DNA from: Bacteriovorax sp.
GTDB lineage: Bacteria > Bdellovibrionota > Bacteriovoracia > Bacteriovoracales > Bacteriovoracaceae
DNA: 64,000 nt
Direction: 5' to 3'
Assembly: GCA_028710485.1 (NCBI GenBank)
Contig: JAQTTZ010000005.1
Coordinates: 1-64,000 of the forward strand
This document shows positions 23,610 through 34,706 of the stretch, piece after piece. A program made the translations under genes and the position numbers. The notes below the pieces were generated by a model. It saw only the letters and a program-made list of their open reading frames with translations. It did not search any database and was not told the origin of the DNA. Positions within the stretch are counted from its first letter, which is position 1; each line of letters starts with the position of its first letter.

Positions 23610-24275
23610 TTAACGAAGAAATGGATTTGATTTCTTTTCTTGATAAATGACAGTCGCTGGTCCGTGACCTGTGATTACTTTAGTTTCATCTGGTAAAACC
23701 AAAAGCCGTTCCTTAATTGACTTAATAATAAGTCTACTATCACCACCTGGTAAATCTGTTCTTCCAATCGATTGTTGAAAAAGAGTATCGCCTGCAAATA
23801 ATTGAGGGATTTCAAAATAATCGCTATAAAAGCAACAAGAACCAGGAGTGTGTCCAGGAGTGTGAAGGGTGGTTAGAAATGTATTGATCTCGGGATCTGT
23901 AAAAGAAAAGATTTCACCATCAAAAAGATAAGCATCCAGCGGTTTTGGAGTTCCTACTTTTTGACCGAAAAAAAGTCCTTGCTGTGGGAGCATATCATAG
24001 AGGAATTGGTCTCCCTTATGAAGATGCATAGTAGCTCCTGTTGCAATACTAACTTCAGAGGATCTTCCGATATGATCGAAATGGGCGTGGGTATGCAAAA
24101 GTTTTTTAACGTTGATATTAAGGTCTTTAATCTTTTTTAAAATAAAGTCGAGGTCATTTCCTGGATCGATAATAATCGCTTCTCGAGTGCTATCAGAATA
24201 TAGGATCGAGCAATTACAAGCGTAACTGCCTACGGGGAAACTGACTAAATTGAGAGAATTTTTTTTTAAGTTAAT
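23610..24275 (-). CDS. Metallo-beta-lactamase-fold hydrolase (glyoxalase II-like), apparent AUU start
   Basis: A cytoplasmic MBL-fold hydrolase of about 221 aa, likely acting on a thioester or similar metabolite. The zinc ligands are all present: HTHAHFDHIG (about residues 61-70), HTPGHTPGS, FAGDTLFQ and ITGHGPAT. The track begins at 24098, inside the first metal motif, because the 59 upstream codons contain no ATG, GTG or TTG. Those codons encode the normal family N-terminus, LVSFPVGSYACNCSILY...AIIIDPG. AAAGGA lies 6 nt before an ATT codon at 24275, the best start by position. ATT as start is rare (infC is the classic case). A sequencing error or re-initiation from the upstream ATP-grasp gene is the alternative. 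Confidence 0.82.
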   Translation of the reverse strand: MNLKKNSLNLVSFPVGSYACNCSILYSDSTREAIIIDPGNDLDFILKKIKDLNINVKKLLHTHAHFDHIGRSSEVSIATGATMHLHKGDQFLYDMLPQQGLFFGQKVGTPKPLDAYLFDGEIFSFTDPEINTFLTTLHTPGHTPGSCCFYSDYFEIPQLFAGDTLFQQSIGRTDLPGGDSRLIIKSIKERLLVLPDETKVITGHGPATVIYQEKKSNPFLR

Positions 24276-24310
24276 ATAAAATCCTTTATTTTTAGGGTTA
24301 TTAGCAAAAT

Positions 24311-33025: not shown

Positions 33026-33544
33026 ATGAGACTTACATCTAAAGGACGTTACGCAGTTAGAGCAATGTTAGACCTTACCAGCCATTCAAATGGTAATCCG
33101 GTAAGATTACAAGAAATCTCAACAAGACAAAACATTAGTTTGCACTATTTAGAGCAACTTTTCAGAAAGCTAAGAAATGGCCAAGCTGTTAAGTCGGTTC
33201 GTGGACCAGGTGGTGGATATGTTCTTGCGAGAAACATGGACCAAATCACAATTAAAGACGTTCTAGAATGTGTTGGGGAAAACATCAATCCAGCTAGAGA
33301 CATCGTAGGATCAGAAGCAGAAACTGCGAATTCACTTGAATTCCATCTTTCTAAAAACTACTTCATGAACCTTGGTATTATCATGAAAGAATACTTAGCA
33401 ACGACTTCTCTTGGCGATCTTGTTAGAAAGTCAAAAGAAACTGAAATTGAAGCAGGGATTGGTCAAAACAATTCTGAAACACACGCTCAGTCGGGAATTA
33501 TGACTTCTTCGATTAGAAATCCAATCGGAGAGATCAATCAGTAG
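33026..33544 (+). CDS. Rrf2-family transcriptional regulator lacking cluster cysteines
   Basis: A 172-aa winged-helix protein: MRLTSKGRYAVRAMLDL, ISLHYLEQLFRKLRNGQAVKSVRGPGGGYVLAR and the dimer helix ending in TTSLGDLV are typical of IscR. Where IscR has three cysteines for its [2Fe-2S] cluster, this protein has GENINPARDIVGSEAETAN with none; the only nearby Cys is in LECVGE. It probably senses something else or acts cluster-free. Thirty C-terminal residues after the core are extra. Its end overlaps the apparent start of a cysteine desulfurase, the usual IscR partner. GGAGGAAGACC precedes ATG. Confidence 0.92.
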   Translation: MRLTSKGRYAVRAMLDLTSHSNGNPVRLQEISTRQNISLHYLEQLFRKLRNGQAVKSVRGPGGGYVLARNMDQITIKDVLECVGENINPARDIVGSEAETANSLEFHLSKNYFMNLGIIMKEYLATTSLGDLVRKSKETEIEAGIGQNNSETHAQSGIMTSSIRNPIGEINQ

Positions 33545-34706
33545 TCGATACTATTTTGATTATAATGCAACCTCCCCACTTTCGAAGAAGGTCATAGGCT
33601 TTCTTCAAGGTGGGGAGTTTTTATTTGGAAACCCCTCTTCTCTTCATCAAACCGGAAAAAAATCTCGTAAATATATCAATGAGACAACTGATTATTTATT
33701 CCAAACATTTTCCTTAGACCCAAAAGACTTTAATCTTTTTTATCATTCTGGGGCCACGGAGGGGATCAATACCTTTTTTAAAGGAGTGGCCCTAAAATAT
33801 TTTAAAGAAAAAAAAGTCGCGAGTTTTTTCTTCTCAACTGTAGACCATGCGTGCGTGGTGCTATTAAAAGACGACTTAGAAGCACTTGGGCATCATGTTT
33901 TCTTTTTTGAGGTAAACCGTGAAGGACTATTCGATACGCAAGAATTAATAACTAAAATTAATCATCAACAGCATCTAGGCCATGAATCCTTCATAAACTT
34001 TACCTATATAAATAATGAAACTGGAATCGTTTGGCCTCTCTCGCTGGCCTTAAAGATAAAAGAAGAAACCAATGCCTTCTTGCATGTAGATGCAGTTCAG
34101 TTAGTCGGAAAAATCTCCAACTGGAACCATCTTTCTCCCGTGCTTGATGCTTATACTTTTTCTGGTCATAAATTTGGTGCATTAAAAGGAGTTGGATTTT
34201 CTTTTGTAAAAAATGACTTGAAATTCTCTCCCTTGCTTGTTGGTGGTAATCAACAACTCGGTCTGAGACCTGGCACAGAAAATGTCATTGGCATTTATTC
34301 ATTAAAACTTGCTTTGGAAGATATTAAAGAGCATTTCTCGGCGACAGAGCTGTTGGAAGCGAAAAATGAGATTGAATCTAAATTGATTAATCTCATTGGC
34401 ACAAAAGGTGAGGTTGTTGGATTTCATTCACCAGAAAGAAACCTCAATACTATTTTTTTGGTTTTACATGGCCAAAAAGCAGAAATTTTAAGTGCCAAAT
34501 TTGATCTTCAGAAAGTTGATCTCTCGACAGGATCGGCCTGCTCTTCTGGTATTATTAAAGAAAACCGTATTCTCATGAGTATGGGGTATAGTTTTGATGA
34601 CTCTCGTTCATCACTTCGTTTTTCTTTTTCACCTTTGATGAAAAAATCAGAGGCCCAAAAATATTTTGAAAAAATAGAAAGTGTTTTTAAGGGTATTCTT
34701 CATTAG
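33537..34706 (+). CDS. iscS: Cysteine desulfurase (IscS/NifS type), apparent AUC start
   Basis: A PLP-dependent enzyme mobilising sulfur from cysteine for Fe-S clusters and thio-modifications. The track begins at GTG 33786, inside the protein. Upstream codons in the same frame encode the true family N-terminus: YFDYNATSPLSKKV, FGNPSSLHQTGKKSR and FYHSGATEGIN. Further on are HVDAVQLVGK, the PLP lysine in FSGHKFGALKGVG, GLRPGTEN and the loop STGSACSSG with the catalytic Cys (about residue 335). No ATG, GTG or TTG exists between the previous in-frame stop and this N-terminus. ATC at 33537, 4 nt after GGAGAG and overlapping the rrf2 stop, is the best start (389 aa). Confidence 0.85.
   Translation: MSSRYYFDYNATSPLSKKVIGFLQGGEFLFGNPSSLHQTGKKSRKYINETTDYLFQTFSLDPKDFNLFYHSGATEGINTFFKGVALKYFKEKKVASFFFSTVDHACVVLLKDDLEALGHHVFFFEVNREGLFDTQELITKINHQQHLGHESFINFTYINNETGIVWPLSLALKIKEETNAFLHVDAVQLVGKISNWNHLSPVLDAYTFSGHKFGALKGVGFSFVKNDLKFSPLLVGGNQQLGLRPGTENVIGIYSLKLALEDIKEHFSATELLEAKNEIESKLINLIGTKGEVVGFHSPERNLNTIFLVLHGQKAEILSAKFDLQKVDLSTGSACSSGIIKENRILMSMGYSFDDSRSSLRFSFSPLMKKSEAQKYFEKIESVFKGILH

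Follow-up and report, generated by a model that had tools for sequence, protein, structure and literature searches.

Results

The window, by which we mean the whole 64,000-nt stretch of DNA analyzed here, belongs to a Bacteriovorax-like draft genome and carries on its plus strand an rrf2/iscR-like regulator gene that runs directly into a gene for an iscS-like cysteine desulfurase. The regulator gene (positions 33026 to 33544, plus strand; 172 amino acids) begins at an ATG with GGAGGA upstream and ends with the TAG at 33542 to 33544, the protein closing with IRNPIGEINQ. Its product scored above the cutoff of the NCBIfam rrf2 superfamily model (113.6 versus 73.3 bits) and below that of the NCBIfam IscR model (138.2 versus 207.55). 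IscR of Escherichia coli, a 2Fe-2S regulator, binds its cluster through a three-cysteine ligand motif; since the regulator in the window has a single cysteine among its 172 residues, it is an IscR-like Rrf2 protein without that motif. The C-terminal tail of the regulator, G-E-[IV]-N-Q followed by the stop, is kept across the family, including at several loci where iscS does not overlap.

The iscS-like frame is open from 33504 to 34706, behind a TGA at 33501 to 33503 (plus strand) that is its last upstream in-frame stop, and it contains no ATG, GTG, or TTG until the GTG at 33786 to 33788. The codons after the TGA read CTT CTT CGA TTA GAA ATC CAA TCG GAG AGA TCA ATC AGT AGT CGA TAC TAT TTT GAT TAT AAT GCA ACC, and the N terminus of the enzyme is coded from 33549 on. 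The original prediction, that an IscS N terminus lies upstream of the first normal start with only nonstandard codons between it and the preceding stop, was therefore accurate on both counts. A Shine-Dalgarno (SD)-like GGAGAG (33527 to 33532, plus strand), lying inside the final Gly-Glu codon pair of rrf2, stands 4 nt ahead of the proposed start codon, ATC (AUC) at 33537 to 33539 on the plus strand, the spacing that had been proposed. The earlier description of this ATC as itself overlapping the rrf2 TAG needs amending: it is the two reading frames that overlap, by 8 nt (ATCAGTAG, 33537 to 33544, plus strand). The genes thus lie on the same strand with stop and start a few nucleotides apart, the arrangement of a termination-reinitiation pair.

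Read from this AUC, the gene (33537 to 34706, plus strand) would encode 389 amino acids, with matches to the NifS profile (2.4e-58) and to cysteine desulfurases in the PDB (3e-37). The segments holding the pyridoxal phosphate lysine (SGHK) and the catalytic cysteine (STGSACSSG) align with 9wep and 5wt2, which places the protein among the group I (NifS/IscS) cysteine desulfurases, with every score under the NCBIfam equivalog cutoffs. The protein predicted from ATC 33537 begins ISSRYYFDYNATSPLSKKV, and the N-terminal peptide expected for an AUC start is (M)SSRYYFDYNATSPL. Position 2 of the NCBIfam NifS profile aligns at frame residue 17. With ATC 33537 counted as residue 1, residue 3 aligns with residue 3 of the Helicobacter pylori IscS (PDB 5wt2, which we take to be the H. 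pylori cysteine desulfurase), so that the AUC falls at the first residue of that enzyme.

Given the internal codon use of this genome, 94 codons without ATG, GTG, or TTG would occur by chance in about 1.2% of cases, so the gap by itself is weak evidence; by the sequence, the weight lies on the conserved N terminus inside the start-free gap and not on the length of the gap. The next gene downstream of iscS is a convergent Bax1-I family gene, so no iscU follows. Elsewhere in the same genome, two more NifS/IscS-like paralogues (L002 and L003, on contigs C180 and C148 of G000), about 30% identical, each have an ATG near the N-terminal motif.

Conservation of the junction among relatives

The orthologue survey returned matches from 112 genomes of the family, and junction sequences were taken from most of these. 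At 53 loci of this one family, 13 to 19 nt separate the rrf2 stop from the conserved Asp downstream, with iscS in the +1 frame, the overlapped layout seen in the window. In most of the 53, the rrf2 tail contains a standard start codon in the iscS frame, either TTG (arising within CCA ATT GGx) or GTG (within GGT GAA); a TTG behind AGGA is likely to be the start in several genera. Eight loci have no ATG, GTG, or TTG in the 60 nt (20 codons) upstream of the conserved Asp, and all eight have an ATC 5 nt before the rrf2 stop with GGAG ahead of it. Seven of these belong to the genus of the window and one (L081) to another genus. Six have no standard start in the whole open stretch (L001, L005, L007, L014, and L015 in the genus, and L081), while in L006 and L008 a TTG occurs well inside rrf2, some 100 nt upstream. 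The junction recurs in 12 species of the window's genus, with the iscS frame intact in all 12.

Where the two genes do not overlap, iscS mostly has a TTG, GTG, or ATG 12 to 27 nt before the Asp, and relatives with separate genes (L027, L097, L099, and L108) have TTG or ATG at the same distance as the AUC. The proposed start is therefore an AUH codon behind an SD, at a position homologous to known starts. The TTG at position D-33, counted from the conserved Asp, was tried as a start for the whole group and rejected, TTG and GTG both being absent from the eight loci; behind AGGA it is probably the start in many relatives. In genus g1, the AGG codon that provides the TTG-facing SD is AGA in all 12 species compared. 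The species of the genus that have no standard start are related, which leaves few independent origins, namely genus g1, L081, and L107, the last with ATA. At L107 (G125), iscS seems to begin at an ATA that overlaps the rrf2 TAA (CAATAAGC), where many relatives have GTG.

Loci whose only SD is the GGA-derived one, which faces the codon at the AUC position, have ATC there in 15 of 15 cases, versus 21 ATC and 17 ACC at the others (Fisher P = 0.001, not corrected for ancestry), and because the window's genus is one clade on the tree, few independent events lie behind this association. Restricted to loci with versus without a standard start, the test gave P = 0.044. A TTG or GTG lies upstream at every ACC locus.

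Codon choice in the rrf2 tail points the same way. The Gly codon GGA, which contributes to the SD, and the codons ATC (Ile), AAT (Asn), and CAG (Gln) show no variation across the 12 species of the genus, and GAG (Glu) is found in 11 of 12. In the rest of the rrf2 gene, none of 12 conserved Gly columns and none of 7 conserved Ile columns is codon invariant, and Asn is written AAC 82 times versus AAT 56 times. An amino-acid-matched synonymous test over the last ten rrf2 codons gave P = 0.066; over the five codons from SD to start, none of 200,000 resamplings matched the observed invariance, for a region set from the mechanism after the first result was known.

Alternative explanations

We consider initiation of iscS at AUC 33537, placed by the SD, probably coupled to rrf2 termination, and expected to be under restraint by initiation factor IF3, to be the best explanation of these sequences, with a probability of roughly 0.8. 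Its closest competitor, which we regard as unlikely, is initiation in the same frame at another nonstandard codon, most plausibly the ATC at 33519, which lies six codons farther upstream, or a CTG in loci that have one. An equivalent of ATC 33519 does occur at all eight loci that lack a near standard start, and four loci (L007, L008, L014, and L015) have a CTG at D-51. However, no SD precedes 33519, and at every such locus the GGAG faces 33537; the codon equivalent to 33519 is ACC in L010 and something other than ATC in L013, both of which have the TTG at D-33; and the CTG is missing from L001, L005, L006, and L081. A start at 33519 would also make the predicted N terminus six residues longer than that of the H. 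pylori enzyme. Somewhat less probable still is programmed +1 frameshifting at the end of rrf2, which would yield a regulator-enzyme fusion and leave iscS with no need of a start codon. Such a mechanism would suit the constant +1 frame of iscS relative to rrf2 at the 53 loci, where TAA or TAG stands directly at the junction. The last sense codon of rrf2, however, is CAG or CAA, which does not permit re-pairing one base on (AGU/AAU), unlike the CUU-U slip of the prfB frameshift, where re-pairing works. At L027, L028, L029, L101, L124, and others, moreover, the genes are in other frames or apart and iscS has its own TTG, GTG, or ATG start, and frameshifting leaves unexplained why the ATC tracks the SD.

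That the true start is GTG 33786, or that the gene is a decaying copy, is very improbable. The GTG (plus strand) is the first standard start codon of the frame, but the closest species shares 84 of the 94 residues coded upstream of it and has no stop there. The same region holds the FDYNAT and SGATEGIN segments, which align with cysteine desulfurases of solved structure and which a start at 33786 would cut off, and the iscS frame is unbroken throughout the 12 species. With protein sequence this highly conserved ahead of it, 33786 is rejected as the start; the original prediction had named protein evidence for a start there, along with a sequencing indel, as what would refute its reading. An assembly or sequencing artifact is the least credible possibility of all: the genome assembly consists of 234 contigs and its contamination is estimated at 8%, yet the junction recurs in many genomes that were assembled independently, at protein identities as low as about 40%, and a sequencing slip is excluded because 53 orthologues of the family share the Rrf2/IscS junction and its +1 placement of iscS. 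The AUC start proposed from the window alone thus gained from the orthologue comparison, in which ATC and GGAG occur together wherever a near standard start is lacking.

An altered initiator tRNA and an absent or odd IF3 were considered and set aside. In the window's genome, a pattern allowing any anticodon matched only a normal initiator tRNA of the GGG-CTCATAA-CCC type, the pattern fixing part of the T loop so that variant initiator tRNAs could be missed. The gene for IF3 is present, starts at ATT, and can be aligned with IF3 sequences from across the phylum. Given the ordinary initiator tRNA, we assume that fMet-tRNA initiates on AUC with the help of an SD, as for infC.

Discussion

The comparison shows the absence of a standard start, the conservation of the junction, the N-terminal register, and the joint occurrence of SD and ATC. 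Building on these features, we propose a model for initiation of iscS. GGAGAG, within the Gly-Glu codons near the end of rrf2, would place the 30S subunit, and the ordinary initiator tRNA with its CAU anticodon would pair with the first two positions of AUC. Most initiations would probably come, by termination-reinitiation, from ribosomes finishing translation at the rrf2 TAG, 5 nt downstream; such translational coupling of rrf2 and iscS fits the 8-nt overlap. Use of the AUC itself we infer from the aligned sequences, and control by IF3 from analogy with infC and sigR: IF3 would be expected to keep the iscS start low, so that little enzyme would be made per regulator.

Starts of this kind are already known, though very rare; what appears to be new, as far as our searches show, is the gene concerned, the overlap with its regulator, and the genus-wide conservation. 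A literature search on start codons in Bacteriovorax found no paper on this topic, the matches concerning Bdellovibrio, and a search for an AUC start codon in bacteria returned only an engineered mutation. In proteobacterial isc operons, iscR, encoding an Rrf2 regulator, directly precedes iscS, encoding a group I cysteine desulfurase. The locus described here shares that order, but no iscU follows iscS and the regulator is without the three-cysteine ligand motif of E. coli.

The infC gene, encoding IF3, starts at ATT in E. coli and at ATC in Streptomyces, and IF3 represses nonstandard starts of this type, including a conserved GTC in Streptomyces sigR (PMC5472188). Like iscS as proposed here, infC combines an AUH start with an ordinary initiator tRNA, and it is ATT-started in this genus as well; infC autoregulates through IF3, whereas iscS is not known to be linked to IF3 and overlaps with the stop of the regulator gene that precedes it. 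The sigR case resembles ours in its genus-conserved nonstandard start, its conserved SD, and its membership in a regulator/partner pair, but it concerns another codon and another gene, sigR is the first gene of its pair, and its control by IF3 was shown by experiment (PMC5472188). Coupling of overlapping genes by termination-reinitiation is likewise known, a short overlap of stop and start favoring reuse of the terminating ribosome (Huber et al. 2019, PMC6728339); the overlaps named there are ATGA and TGATG with standard starts, whereas that of iscS would be 8 nt long and involve AUC.

Gene finders limited to ATG, GTG, and TTG would either shorten the enzyme in the window by 83 residues or annotate it as partial; they would also misplace the iscS start across part of the clade. 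The comparison also shows how synonymous changes in an upstream gene, by moving the SD, can shift a start from TTG to AUC.

Other probable AUH starts in the genus

A metallo-beta-lactamase (MBL)-fold gene on the minus strand of the window (23610 to 24275; Pfam Lactamase_B, 3.8e-23) had been put forward as a second AUH-start gene, and for it the case is stronger than for iscS. Its open frame spans 24317 to 23610, with the first standard start at codon 74 and the MBL domain beginning at residue 33; the proposed start is ATT at 24275 to 24273, with AAGGA at 24286 to 24282 ahead of it. At the homologous position, six sister loci have ATG (L135 to L139 and L141), while ATT is found in the window, G002, G005, and G012 and ATC in G006; ATT or ATC thus occurs in five species and ATG in most sisters. 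G005 and G006 have a stop two codons upstream of the ATT or ATC, and G002 has a GTG and an ATG far upstream, still in the open frame. The gene therefore offers a natural AUG/AUU/AUC series for testing start-codon choice.

Among genus members (L249 to L262), infC begins at ATT wherever the hit is full length (12 of 12), as it does through most of the sampled phylum; in many genomes this ATT is the first codon after TAA. Comparison of stretches (not whole genomes) from the genus gave 339 ortholog clusters, 278 of them without a window member. Outside the window and leaving infC aside, 1 of 277 ortholog groups looked AUH-started, a figure with a wide error; because the window was picked for having two AUH cases and is unfit for a rate, it is the less biased one. 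Several flagged clusters were set aside, their upstream conservation reflecting noncoding DNA (e.g., the rrf2 leader) or antisense frames.

The suggestion that AUH starts are a feature of this organism's translation thus holds in part. The AUG/AUU/AUC exchange in the MBL gene and one more probable gene, from a sample picked without regard to such starts, speak for it, and by sequence AUH starts do recur in the genus; they are nevertheless a small minority, and the initiator tRNA and infC are ordinary. It is a speculative and rather doubtful extension that AUH, and occasionally CUG, might form a regular minor class of starts in the genus, perhaps in tens of genes per genome, with iscS, the MBL gene, and infC jointly controlled by the level of IF3. 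Apart from infC, the one cluster outside the window with a likely AUH start encodes a signal-peptide protein, whose apparent start is ATA in G006 (C108, about 54 kb; L294) and ATC in G012 (C139, about 17 kb; L300), where G003 has ATG. In G011 (C120, about 22.3 kb; L200), cdaA, encoding diadenylate cyclase, has CTG where sister species have GTG or ATG.
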